DNA from: a virus
Reading direction: 5' to 3' (one strand)
Virus record (IMG/VR): IMGVR_UViG_3300033148_007527
Span: 1 to 47,691 of that record
Length of the DNA: 47,691 bases
Part shown: positions 8,498-23,740 of the stretch, in pieces
Layout of the letters: each line of letters starts with the position of its first letter
Numbering within the stretch: the first letter of the stretch is position 1
Notes under the pieces: model-generated
Told to the model about the DNA's origin: nothing
What the model saw: only the letters and a program-made list of their open reading frames with translations
Databases searched by the model: none
Made by a program: the position numbers and the translations under genes

Positions 8498-9436
8498 TTA
8501 AACTACTGATGCGTAAAAACCTCTCCACTCAATAAAATCTGCAGCGGCTCTAAATGAGGCTTTCATCTTATGATCGTCAGTTTCGAAATCGGAATAATTA
8601 CTTTCAAAAGTGTAATTACGTCTCCAATACCATTTAAGAACTTTCTGGGATTCATCCATTAAGAACCATGCACCTGCAGCAGTTAAATAAGGATTAACAA
8701 TATATTTAATATTACCATCTATCTGCAAGAGATTCTTCTGATTAACATTCTCTGAATTTGCACTAGCAGCAGCACCAAGTTCAAGAAGTGGTTTATACTC
8801 ATTGATCAATAGTTCTTTTGCCATCCATTCCAAAGCTTGTGGAATAACCAATAGAGTAGGTCTCATAGTAGCCATAACAAGACCACGTTTATCCTTCAAA
8901 CTCTTAAAATGTGTTATTGCAGCCTGTAACCCAGCATAGCTAAGTGCAGTGGTAGCAGTATTAGACTGTGTACCGGTGTAATCAATATAAGGATGAGTTG
9001 CAGAACTTAAAGCAACACCGTCAATACCAGTTCTGTAAGTTGTTACAAAAGCAGTATTCAACAAATCTGCAGCTAAAAACTCAACAGTGTAAGCACCTGC
9101 ATTACCAAGATGTCCTGCCATACTTTTAATAACACCCTGTTTATCATCTTCCTGCAAAATATGTGAATGCTGAACACCCAAAGCATACTCTGAAAAGAAA
9201 ATCTCTTTCTCCAAACCTTCTTTCAAGGAATCATAAGTTAAAGCATCCCCTTCATCACGTTTAGAAAATCCTCTTAAACCTGCAATTTCCGCTTCTTTAT
9301 AAGAATGCATTGACATATTCTTGACATCCATATAGGAAAGTCCAACCTTTCTAACTCCCATATACTCATCATTAGAAAGCTTATCAAGATCTTTAGCAAA
9401 CGCACTACTCATATTACCTGTAGTATTTATACTCAT
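8498..9436 (-). CDS. Major capsid protein (HK97-fold type)
   Basis: A 312-residue protein with the pattern of Mu gpT-like or HK97-fold capsid proteins: an N-terminal helical arm (AFAKDLDKLSNDEYMG), an E-loop-like region (RDEGDALTYDSLKEGLE), the helical spine (LSYAGLQAAITHFKSLKDKRG), the P-domain stretch MRPTLLVIPQALEWMAKELL, and the C-terminal signature VNPYLTAAGAWFLMD with FRAAADFIEWRGFYAS. The preceding small protein is decoration-like, an acidic scaffold-like gene lies upstream, and a terminator follows. ATG 9436 follows GGAGG. Gene order and motif agree. Confidence 0.85.
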   Translation of the reverse strand: MSINTTGNMSSAFAKDLDKLSNDEYMGVRKVGLSYMDVKNMSMHSYKEAEIAGLRGFSKRDEGDALTYDSLKEGLEKEIFFSEYALGVQHSHILQEDDKQGVIKSMAGHLGNAGAYTVEFLAADLLNTAFVTTYRTGIDGVALSSATHPYIDYTGTQSNTATTALSYAGLQAAITHFKSLKDKRGLVMATMRPTLLVIPQALEWMAKELLINEYKPLLELGAAASANSENVNQKNLLQIDGNIKYIVNPYLTAAGAWFLMDESQKVLKWYWRRNYTFESNYSDFETDDHKMKASFRAAADFIEWRGFYASVV

Positions 9437-21874: not shown

Positions 21875-22020
21875 ACCAAGGTGGTGAAATGGTAAACGCA
21901 CTCTCATAATTACGGTGAGTAGTACTAGTTGAAAATCGTGGCTGCTATTCCAGAAATGTTGATAAGAGGAATAGATGCCAGGGAAGTCAACACTTGCAGG
22001 TTCGAATCCCGCCCTTGGTA
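21875..22020 (+). tRNA. tRNA-shaped RNA with giant variable arm and no normal anticodon
   Basis: Acceptor ACCAAGG (21875-21881) pairs perfectly with CCTTGGT (22013-22019), with A at position 73. T8 is present; the D-arm GTG...CAC has a GG-containing loop like tRNA-Leu; the T-arm is GCAGG-TTCGAAT-CCCGC (one A-C mismatch). The anticodon stem CTCAT/GTGAG (21903-21919) closes AATTACG, which lacks U33 and a normal anticodon. The variable arm is about 76 bases: AGT/ACT, GTTGA/TCAAC, TGGC/GCCA and CTATTCC/GGAATAG nest inside each other. Real class II tRNAs have arms of about 10-20 bases. It could be a tRNA mimic, a processing signal or a decayed leucine-type tRNA. No CCA is encoded. Confidence 0.6.
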
Positions 22021-22023
22021 ATT

Positions 22024-22197
22024 TGGTGGTTGGTGTTAATAGGTAAATACAGTTTGTATAATTAGTTTGCTTTATTAATAATTATATGATTTTCATCGTT
22101 GTAGGGTGACTATACAAGTTAGATAGCCGTAGAAATACTGGTTAAGTTATAAGGGGGCTTATTAAATATCCTCTTCTTGTCAAATCCCTACCCACCA
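22024..22197 (+). ncRNA. Structured RNA element 1 (tRNA-like ends, T-loop insert)
   Basis: TGGTGG (22024-22029) pairs with CCACCA (22192-22197) as an acceptor-like stem. T8, a D-arm-like GTGT...ATAC with AGG in its loop and a TTAATA/TATTAA hairpin follow. Then comes GTAGGGTGACTATACAAG (22101-22118), a variable part, and CTTGTCAAATCCCTACC (22176-22192). Both blocks recur exactly in element 2. Joining GTAGGGT to TCAAATCCCTAC gives a perfect T-arm, so the part between (22108-22179) is placed like an insert between bases 54 and 55 of a T-loop. CAAG/CTTG closes the insert. No anticodon arm is clear. Confidence 0.6.
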
Positions 22198-22217
22198 TTT
22201 ATTTTTGATTTTTAAGG

Positions 22218-22316
22218 CTTCACAAATTAAGGCTTAGTCCCCTTAATTTTGAAGGAAACCACAATAGACTGTTGTGGGAGTGAGTAACCGAGTATTGAAA
22301 CTTTGGTTACTTCCTT
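22218..22316 (+). other. Chain of hairpins between element 1 and the Gln-like tRNA
   Basis: CTTC-ac-AAATTAAGG pairs with CCTTAATTT-t-GAAG (22218-22254, followed closely by purines). CCACAA/TTGTGG (22259-22277) and AGTAACC/GGTTACT (22283-22311) follow, enclosed by AAGGAA/TTCCTT to form a three-way junction with a T run. They could be partial terminators or processing structures in the transcript. Confidence 0.5.
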
Positions 22317-22323
22317 TTTATTT

Positions 22324-22393
22324 AGCAGGATAACTAATGGTAAGTATGCAGGTCTTGACCCTGTAAATAGGAGTTCGAGTCTCTTTCCTGCTT
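22324..22393 (+). tRNA. tRNA-Gln(UUG)-like
   Basis: Acceptor AGCAGGA/TCCTGCT is perfect; T8, a three-pair D-arm ACT/AGT with GG in the loop, anticodon stem GCAGG/CCTGT around TCTTGAC (anticodon TTG, decoding CAA), and T-arm AGGAG-TTCGAGT-CTCTT. Oddities: position 33 is C rather than U, position 73 is T and the first pair A-T, while glutamine tRNAs normally carry G73, so charging by the host enzyme is uncertain. No CCA is encoded. It could be functional or another member of the tRNA-like set around it. Confidence 0.7.
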
Positions 22394-22492
22394 TTCCCCT
22401 GCATGGGGGAAATATCTAATTTATGGCACACTCTTTATGGATTGTGCATTCTATTTCTTTGCAGGGGAGCCGTTCACTCCCTTGCATTTTTT
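22393..22492 (+). promoter_or_regulatory. Attenuator-like leader (antiterminator/terminator) before the 22505 gene
   Basis: Hairpin I is TTTCCCC-TGCATG-GGGGAAA (22393-22412), hairpin II GCACA...TGTGC follows, and the terminator TGCAGGGGAG/CTCCCTTGCA with six T lies at 22460-22492. CCCCTGCA (22396-22403) in hairpin I is the exact complement of TGCAGGGG (22460-22467) in the terminator, so pairing between them would break both and allow read-through. The gene's SD starts two bases after the T run. What would control the switch is unknown. Confidence 0.6.
22460..22492 (+). terminator. Intrinsic terminator ahead of the 22505 gene
   Basis: TGCAGGGGAG pairs over ten positions (one G-U) with CTCCCTTGCA around CCGTTCA, followed by six T. 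It ends the RNA-locus transcript unless antitermination occurs. Confidence 0.85.
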
Positions 22493-22504
22493 AAAGGAGT
22501 TTTT

Positions 22505-23176
22505 ATGGAAAAAATAATATACACAATAGAATTAATTGACAGAAAGTTTACAAAAGGGGAAATGGACATACTTAATAAAATTGAGCCAGCTCTTAAATTG
22601 AGACCAGAAACATTTGACGAGTTTAGTCTCTATTCCAACGACGAAAATTACACTAAAAAAGAAGATGATCCAGAAAATTATAAAGCAAAAAATAAAGCAC
22701 TGAAAACTACTAACCATATTAAATACATGGATAACTATAATAGAGGTAAATCGATAAGCATAGGTTATGGTAATAGAATACTAAATGGAATTGATCTTGA
22801 AGATTTTTCAAGGAAAATAAACATACCTTTTAAAGTTATTTCTATGAAGATTTTAATTTTTGAAGTTGCTCAAGCAGCAGACTTTTCAAAATCATTTAGA
22901 CAATTAGAAGAACTTTCAAAGAATCTTGGTGAAAAAATAAAAGATGTGACATTTAATCAAAAGTGTGATGTACATATTTCTGGAAATATGCTTTTAACCA
23001 TTAACGATCTAAAACTCATTGAGGATTCCTGTGCAGATGACATTCAAATTGAATTAAATAATGGCTGGAGAATAATTGCAGTATGTGTACAACCTCAAAG
23101 AAGACCGGACTATATTTTAGGGCGTTATAATCCAGATTTAAAAGTTGACGATAATAGAAACGCAAAAAGAAAATAA
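22505..23176 (+). CDS. Protein of unknown function inside the RNA locus
   Basis: A 223-residue protein starting at ATG 22505 after AAAGGAG (an in-frame upstream start at 22403 would run through the terminator and is rejected). The first part is alpha/beta with a long acidic, disordered-looking stretch (about residues 40-65). The C-terminus is distinctive: LNNGWRIIAVCVQPQRRPDY followed by ILGR, a 'GWRi.aVc.QP..RRPDYiLG' motif that looks conserved, but I cannot name the family. It is the only sizeable protein between the two related RNA elements, so it may act with them. Confidence 0.6.
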   Translation: MEKIIYTIELIDRKFTKGEMDILNKIEPALKLRPETFDEFSLYSNDENYTKKEDDPENYKAKNKALKTTNHIKYMDNYNRGKSISIGYGNRILNGIDLEDFSRKINIPFKVISMKILIFEVAQAADFSKSFRQLEELSKNLGEKIKDVTFNQKCDVHISGNMLLTINDLKLIEDSCADDIQIELNNGWRIIAVCVQPQRRPDYILGRYNPDLKVDDNRNAKRK

Positions 23177-23336
23177 CTATAAAAAACCTTTTTCAAAATC
23201 GGGCTGTTAGTTGGAGACAGCTAAAAAATGTGCCAAAGTTTATTTTTCACTTCTTTGGTAAACACAAATTTCCAACACTTTTTATACCTGGGAGGTTTAA
23301 GCTCCTTTTTCTTCCCAGGTATTCTTTAAAAATTAT
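23177..23336 (+). other. Structured spacer with terminator-like hairpin
   Basis: No gene. GCTGT/ACAGC lies just after the stop; TGTG-CCAAAG...CTTTGG-CACA follows; then ATACCTGGGA (23284-23293) pairs exactly with TCCCAGGTAT (23313-23322). Inside it GGAG/CTCC followed by five T is an alternative small terminator hairpin, so two exclusive folds are possible just before element 2. Confidence 0.55.
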
Positions 23337-23565
23337 TAGCGGCGGTGGGAAAGAAAGCCACACATGGGGCAAAGTGATAGAATAGAAGCAATTATAAGCA
23401 CTCTGCATTATTATACTATTCTAATAAATGGCGGTATGAAAATTGCTTTATTAGTAACGTGACCCTAGAGACTTTTAAGATAGAATGCAGTATATCAAGA
23501 AAAGGCGAAAATCACTTTATGTAGGGTGACTATACAAGTATTTCTTGTCAAATCCCTACCTGCTA
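23337..23565 (+). ncRNA. Structured RNA element 2, homologous to element 1
   Basis: TAGCGG (23337-23342) pairs with CTGCTA-type 3' bases CCTGCTA (23559-23565), the same place as the acceptor-like stem of element 1 but with different bases, i.e. covariation. GTAGGGTGACTATACAAG (23521-23538) and CTTGTCAAATCCCTACC (23544-23560) are identical to element 1; here only five bases separate CAAG and CTTG, so the T-loop insert is minimal. A CTAATAAA/TTTATTAG hairpin (from about 23419) matches the TTAATA/TATTAA hairpin of element 1 and shares the sequence TTGCTTTATTA with it. The 5' part GGGAAAGAAAGCCAC resembles the small RNA at 21662. ACCCTA near 23462 offers an alternative partner for TAGGGT. Confidence 0.6.
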
Positions 23566-23588
23566 TTTTTATTTTAACTGGAGGTTAT

Positions 23589-23658: not shown

Positions 23659-23740
23659 AACCGGATAGTTTAACGAGTAAAACAGCATTAAGGAGTAAAT
23701 TCTTTTTGTAAAGTCCTTGGTTCAAGTCCAAGTCCGGTTA
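23659..23740 (+). tRNA. tRNA-shaped RNA with enlarged anticodon arm
   Basis: Acceptor AACCGGA/TCCGGTT is perfect with A73; T8; D-arm GTTT/AAAC; T-arm CTTGG-TTCAAGT-CCAAG is perfect. Between D- and T-arms there are 31 bases instead of about 22. The best fold is GCA-TT-AAGGA around GTAAAT with TCTTT-T-TGT, a two-part stem with a six-base loop, then a variable loop AAAGTC; no seven-base anticodon loop with U33 can be drawn. The decoding specificity is therefore undetermined. It may be non-decoding, like the one at 21875. Confidence 0.6.

Follow-up and report, generated by a model that had tools for sequence, protein, structure and literature searches.

tRNA-like elements in the window

The window (the whole stretch of viral DNA analysed, 47,691 nucleotides, IMG/VR record IMGVR_UViG_3300033148_007527) contains two tRNA-like elements, each with an arm emerging from the T-loop. 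The sequence GTAGGGTGACTATACAAG is found at positions 22101 and 23521 and, with up to 3 mismatches allowed, at no third site in the window (two matches at this threshold were obtained in 1 of 100 shuffles), and is directly followed by CTTGTCAAATCCCTAC in both elements; the two exact shared blocks noted in a preliminary description of this DNA are in place at both. The following features were assigned.

22024..22197, plus strand: element 1, a complete tRNA-like RNA with a T-loop arm (from the sequence and covariance model R1)
22024..22029, plus strand: element 1, acceptor-like stem, 5' strand TGGTGG, pairing with 22192-22197 (the homologous stem covaries in 63 relatives)
22033..22050, plus strand: element 1, D-arm GTGT-TAATAGGTAA-ATAC, with the AATAGG D-loop of the class
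22051..22100, plus strand: element 1, variable domain at the position of the anticodon and variable arms, its last nucleotide being T48
22101..22106, plus strand: element 1, T-stem, 5' strand GTAGGG, pairing with 22186-22191
22107..22118, plus strand: element 1, T54, conserved GACTATA (22108-22114) and 5' strand of the insert helix, CAAG (22115-22118)
22119..22175, plus strand: element 1, body of the T-loop arm, 57 nt, variable (from the sequence)
22176..22185, plus strand: element 1, 3' strand of the insert helix, CTTG, and 3' part of the T-loop, TCAAAT
22186..22197, plus strand: element 1, 3' strands of the T-stem, CCCTAC, and of the acceptor-like stem, CCACCA
23337..23565, plus strand: element 2, a tRNA-like RNA with a long knotted central domain and a short T-loop arm (from the sequence and model R1)
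23337..23342, plus strand: element 2, acceptor-like 5' strand TAGCGG, pairing with 23560-23565 (tentative)
23345..23361, plus strand: element 2, D-arm-like hairpin GTGG...CCAC with a divergent loop lacking GG
23371..23518, plus strand: element 2, predicted variable-arm-like helix, AAAGTGAT (23371-23378) with ATCACTTT (23511-23518), exactly complementary
23521..23538, plus strand: element 2, T-stem 5' strand GTAGGG, T54, GACTATA (23528-23534) and 5' strand of the insert helix, CAAG (23535-23538)
23544..23565, plus strand: element 2, 3' strand of the insert helix, CTTG, then TCAAAT, T-stem 3' strand CCCTAC and acceptor-like 3' strand CTGCTA

The acceptor-like stems pair as had been proposed (TGGTGG with CCACCA, TAGCGG with CTGCTA), except that the first C of the strand originally given for element 2, CCTGCTA, belongs to the T-stem. 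Given that model R1 favours a different 5' acceptor partner for element 2, near 23484, this assignment is less certain than that for element 1. Element 2 is divergent in its 5' half, with no GG pair in the D-loop, and its AAAGTGAT/ATCACTTT helix encloses predicted crossing helices of exact complementarity, namely AGAATAG/CTATTCT, AAGCAATT/AATTGCTT, CTGCATT/AATGCAG and CTAATAAA/TTTATTAG. The T-loop insert, located between nucleotides 54 and 55 and counted from GACTATA through the end of the helix, has a length of 72 nt in element 1 and of 20 nt in element 2, and its removal restores the T-arm, as the preliminary description had it. The TAATA/TATTA hairpin that the two elements were thought to share is not confirmed: the D-loop of element 1 (22037-22041) reads TAATA, and the similar string in element 2 lies within an unrelated helix (23421-23428 with 23447-23454). 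Model R1, trained without the window sequences, recovers element 1 (34.3 bits, E=2.3e-7) and matches element 2 at 23482-23568 (36.6 bits, E=4.5e-8).

Neither element is recognised by ARAGORN or Rfam 15 (at the gathering score or at E up to 10); nearby, these scans detect a tRNA-Gln (22324-22393) and a tRNA-like gene (23659-23740). The latter (Rfam tRNA, 42 bits) carries about 26 nt in the anticodon region and is missed by ARAGORN. A further tRNA-Leu-like RNA occupies 21876-22019, its 3' end 4 nt before element 1; this RNA has the acceptor ACCAAGG/CCTTGGT and an ordinary T-loop, TTCGAAT, with about 95 nt replacing the anticodon and variable arms.

Anatomy and distribution of the RNA class

A search with the 3' block as the query identifies one relative, L003, and the T-arm pattern identifies eight true relatives along with a few chance matches. 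When only the Leu-type D-arm and GTGACTATA are fixed, 79 stretches are retrieved, compared to about 11 expected by our estimate; deduplication leaves 70 distinct ones, 63 of which have a perfect T-stem as well as an acceptor stem. The relatives come mostly from uncultivated (metagenomic) phages, with a few contigs (L033, L100) apparently bearing IMG isolate numbers. Some phages carry more than one element, as in this window, in L094 and in the L033 phage, where a second copy is present. In the second L094 element (minus strand, near reverse-strand position 8590), the D-loop also contains an inserted hairpin.

The consensus begins with the acceptor stem, TG, the D-arm GCG GAATAGGTAGA CGC, a variable domain of 24-78 nt, AU and a 6-bp T-stem; it continues with U54, GACTATA, a helix (usually CGAG/CTCG), a variable arm and [U/G]CAAAU, followed by the 3' strands of the T-stem and acceptor stem. 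In each of the 63 relatives, GACTATA and the helix split the T-loop between nucleotides 54 and 55. In the alignment of these sequences (A3), 94.5% of the cells are paired, the covariation score is 0.670 versus 0.185 for shuffled and at most 0.161 for slid partners, and two-sided changes occur in 22 of the 25 pairs. Pairing reaches about 98-100% in each of the acceptor stem (inner 7 pairs), D-stem (3), T-stem (6) and insert helix (4), with two-sided changes in nearly all pairs; the percentage for the T-stem is partly built in because the rows were picked for T-stem pairing, a selection not applied to the acceptor stem, D-stem or insert helix. Thus, the covariation analysis of homologues suggested in the preliminary description bears out its central idea of tRNA-derived RNAs that host a helix in the T-loop, the part of its interpretation that stands once the TAATA hairpin and the affinity with large phage RNAs (see below) are set aside.

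Conservation extends beyond the search pattern. Nucleotide 48 is U in 63/63 insert-class members and in all 109 members of the insert-free parent class described below, although it lies outside the pattern, as does CAAAU, which is kept in 62/63. In tRNAs, U8-A14, A15-U48 (the Levitt pair), G18-G19 and C56 are tertiary positions and, because such positions are kept here, the frame of the insert class most likely folds as a tRNA elbow. Two features are less typical: N55 is often G, and the acceptor pairing runs outward for about 20 bp at 60-75%, unlike a canonical tRNA end. With regard to the idea that AUAG of the D-loop pairs with CUAU of GACTATA, the D-loop is changed in 3 of 6 distinct cases with a GACTTTA variant, and pairing between the central domain and the T-loop arm reaches a rank of 0.05 or below in 8/66 cases, barely above chance.

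Degenerate, functionless phage tRNA-Leu genes might be expected to show the high variability seen between the D-arm and the T-arm, but this reading is contradicted by the two-sided covariation, and by the invariant tertiary bases and motifs conserved in unrelated phages, and has next to no chance of being correct. The T-loop insert could, alternatively, be a small intron, the removal of which would leave TTCAAAT or TGCAAAT, with a ligase such as RtcB joining the halves. Such an intron would fit a 5' flank that ends in U, an insert that ends in G, a rejoined loop identical to that of the insert-free class, and the existence of group I introns, about 290 nt on average, in the tmRNA T-loop (PMC11915505). 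One relative, L003 4255-4420, lies directly upstream of a gene that reads as an RtcB RNA ligase (from about 4443), but RtcB is found beside this element only, and the terminal G is accounted for by the C-G closing pair of the insert helix: in 62/63 sequences, GACTATA is followed by a C that pairs with this G, and the lone exception (L068) is a compensatory G-C. The inserts, at 20-100 nt, are far below the size of group I introns, with a core of roughly 200 nt or more, and no Rfam intron model matches. Given the insert size and the lack of a splicing system, the intron reading is very unlikely.

The same frame with an unbroken T-loop, TGCAAAT, was first met in Listeria phage B025 and in a Latilactobacillus phage. 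The scan for this parent class gives at least 120 matches, with 109 distinct members parsed among the matches listed, so that it is commoner than the insert class. Its acceptor stem has 7 bp, the pairing being 0.89 and then, further out, 0.57 and 0.3. Inspection of the sequences shows unannotated members in SPP1, phi3T, the SBSphiJ group and several L. plantarum phages; the class is also present in LP65, and the match list adds Listeria, Enterococcus and Leuconostoc phages. The SPP1 element is located between genes 9 and 11. This parent class, along with the D-arm, the affinity to leucine tRNA and the pseudoknotted domain in place of the anticodon arm, had gone unmentioned in the preliminary description.

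Several other searches were negative within their scope. One consensus query detects no parent-class element in E. coli genomes; 42-nt consensus queries retrieve no convincing insert-class member from 50,697 phage and 72,556 plasmid records, with one weak phage match (H49); a covariance search of about 400 genomes in each of the G003 and G004 phyla, with 12 candidates per genome scored, yields none at 1e-7, a weak negative; and a first scan of the genome collection with the TTGTC pattern, which was too narrow, gave only 6 chance matches. The bacterial matches of model R1 that were checked are all ordinary tRNA-Leu genes (6/6). Taken together, these comparisons place both elements in the window, almost certainly, in a large class of noncoding phage RNAs that has gone unannotated and that uses the tRNA-Leu frame, with the anatomy described here.

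Several individual members have peculiarities of their own. Lactobacillus phage P1 (L242, about 1472-1540) appears to contain a minimal frame with almost no central domain. In L066, a minimal RNA of the insert class, the loop of the insert has 6 nt. A hairpin, GGGTTCGGGG(A/T)TAGCCCGGACGA, immediately precedes the acceptor in SPP1 (L246) and SBSphiJ2 (L248), which are unrelated Bacillus phages; in SBSphiJ2, some 1.5 kb without annotated genes (L248 2050-3570) contain several odd tRNA-like RNAs and normal tRNAs. In Lactobacillus phage Iacchus (L243 390-945), one tRNA array contains both a ROOL RNA (144 bits) and a parent-class element.

Central domain, module exchange and genomic setting

The central domain occupies the site of the anticodon and variable arms of tRNA. 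A canonical anticodon arm (5-bp stem and 7-nt loop) is not found, and the alignment contains no common anticodon; either a pseudoknot or irregular hairpins are predicted in the domain. When helices are constrained to the anticodon and variable positions, 51% of the insert class and 37% of the parent class score better than mononucleotide shuffles (5% level) for an H-type pseudoknot, in which the strand that follows the D-arm pairs with the loop of the variable arm. The expected share is 5%, and the nested arrangement of an anticodon arm and a variable arm passes the same threshold in only 15-17%. The tRNA frame is under strong selection and retains no decoding arm, the anticodon site being taken by a variable structured domain; the insert class has another such domain in the T-loop.

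Bacillus phages of two unrelated groups (phi3T; SBSphiJ/Goe) have one central domain in common that is carried by different frames. Compensatory changes are present in the variable-arm helices of this domain; its pseudoknot helix is invariant and hence uninformative with respect to covariation. L. plantarum phages of different families share the acceptor and T-stem sequence and differ in the central domain. Four insert-class phages have T-loop arms that are 79-91% identical (background mean 0.52, maximum 0.69), with central domains at background. Because each of these parts is shared independently of the others, the frame, central domain and T-loop arm are, judging by these sequence comparisons, exchanged as modules.

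The elements are located in intergenic gaps, often within operons, or in tRNA arrays. Both neighbours are encoded on the same strand in 36/60 cases, with median gaps of 64 and 100 nt. Genomic context reveals no conserved neighbour gene or protein partner: gene content around the elements varies, HNH endonucleases and terminase being the most frequent. Upstream of the insert-class elements, a boxA-like CTTTGA(A) is present in 11/66 cases (e.g., L016, L050, L074, L075 and L084) compared to about 1 expected; boxA sites precede rRNA genes. The usual location in short gaps between same-strand genes would be compatible with a punctuation signal in polycistronic phage mRNA, i.e., with a fold that is a mere cutting or stabilising site between genes. 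For such a role, however, a plain tRNA-like frame would suffice, which leaves the long pseudoknotted domains and the conserved GACTATA unexplained, and elements are also present in tRNA arrays; this possibility has a small chance of being correct.

Relation to known RNAs and possible roles

With tRNA-Leu (RF00005), the class shares the Leu-type D-arm TGGCGGAATnGGTAGACGC, the stack of the acceptor and T-stem, A14, A15-U48, G18-G19 and C56. It has the acceptor, D and T arms with their tertiary positions but differs in the missing canonical anticodon arm and in the T-loop, which is TGCAAAT or split by a helix, so that an uninterrupted 7-nt T-loop is absent from the insert class, including both window elements; these RNAs are missed by ARAGORN and the Rfam tRNA model. 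LeuRS does not need the anticodon, and A73 is a key base for this enzyme. The RNAs might, then, be tRNA-Leu mimics that are charged with leucine and subsequently used or wasted, a suggestion consistent with the retained Leu-type features and with the checked cross-matches, which are to tRNA-Leu. The discriminator A73, however, is found in only 54/86 (63%) of the parent class and 31/62 (50%) of the insert class, nucleotide 73 being U in SPP1, C in phi3T and G in SBSphiJ2. Because A73 is not kept, leucine charging is highly unlikely as a general purpose.

Like tmRNA, these RNAs have tRNA-like ends without an anticodon arm, pseudoknots and an insert-tolerant T-loop; unlike it, they contain a true D-stem and an insert of 20-100 nt, and neither Rfam nor ARAGORN scans detect a tmRNA match. 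ROOL and GOLLD (RF03087 and relatives), either of which had been considered for these elements initially, are likewise phage RNAs found in tRNA arrays but are about 570 nt or longer, compared to 130-230 nt for this class, which has a tRNA frame; no covariance model of these families in Rfam 15 matches at the gathering score or at E up to 10. The class is neither a decoding tRNA nor tmRNA, ROOL/GOLLD or a group I intron. The initial impression that no known class fits holds, in that no Rfam 15 family matches. The elements are also unannotated in the phage records inspected, and a literature search, of incomplete coverage such that an earlier description is possible, found none; the class looks like an undescribed one.

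Two systems offer partial parallels. Bacterial Y RNA (YrlA) has a tRNA-like module in which the anticodon region is replaced, and a similar mimicry may be present here; Ro60, the partner of YrlA, is absent from the neighbour families listed. In the engineered tRNA scaffold, a foreign RNA replaces the anticodon arm of a tRNA frame; the present class has its additional domain at the same site but is natural and, in the insert class, has an extra arm in the T-loop.

A natural tRNA scaffold is the best overall explanation of the class, and one with an even chance of proving correct. Under this model, the frame would fold as a tRNA elbow and be read by host tRNA enzymes; RNase P and RNase Z would cut the RNA out of phage operon transcripts, and the excised RNA would be protected and persist like a tRNA. 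The central domain and the T-loop arm would be the working parts, exchangeable payloads acting on a host target, with the second arm leaving the T-loop between nucleotides 54 and 55 via the conserved GACTATA/NCAAAT internal loop. That the frame serves processing and stability is a plausible, if slightly less secure, part of this model. The scaffold is favoured by the covariation, the invariant tertiary positions that were not selected for, the cross-matches to tRNA-Leu, the 7-bp acceptor of the parent class, the excess of pseudoknots over shuffles, the payloads that move independently of frames, the location in operons and tRNA arrays, and the lack of a conserved protein partner nearby. Against it are the outward acceptor pairing of about 20 bp, the frequent G at N55, the D-loop of element 2 without GG and the invariance of the pseudoknot helix in the best payload alignment; furthermore, RNase P and RNase Z contact the T-loop of tRNA, and the insert would disturb this very loop.

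The main rival to the scaffold, and a somewhat unlikely one, is an elbow decoy, an RNA that would titrate or mislead a host protein recognising the acceptor, T-stem and elbow, such as RNase P, a tRNA-processing or tRNA-modifying enzyme, or a tRNA-directed defence enzyme. Devoid of an anticodon arm, a decoy would be useless in translation and resistant to anticodon nucleases. The restriction of the constant features to the elbow and the acceptor/T-stem, the lack of a partner gene, and the occurrence in both temperate and virulent phages are compatible with this role, which, however, has no known target and leaves the structured, module-exchanged central domain unexplained.

From the sequence comparisons, the class probably imitates the shape of tRNA so that it is produced and kept intact in the host. 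More tentatively than the scaffold itself, it may be proposed that tRNA-disguised RNAs occur across phages of many bacteria, with the tRNA-Leu frame hijacking host maturation and knotted, interchangeable payloads acting in trans on functions of the host or of rival phages. Given that the class resides, unannotated, in laboratory model phages, both decades-old ones (SPP1, phi3T) and current test phages (SBSphiJ, Listeria B025), its function is testable at once in laboratory strains. If the scaffold model is correct, the class would show the tRNA scaffold strategy at work in nature, and its insert subclass would represent an elbow with a T-loop that is split by a helix.
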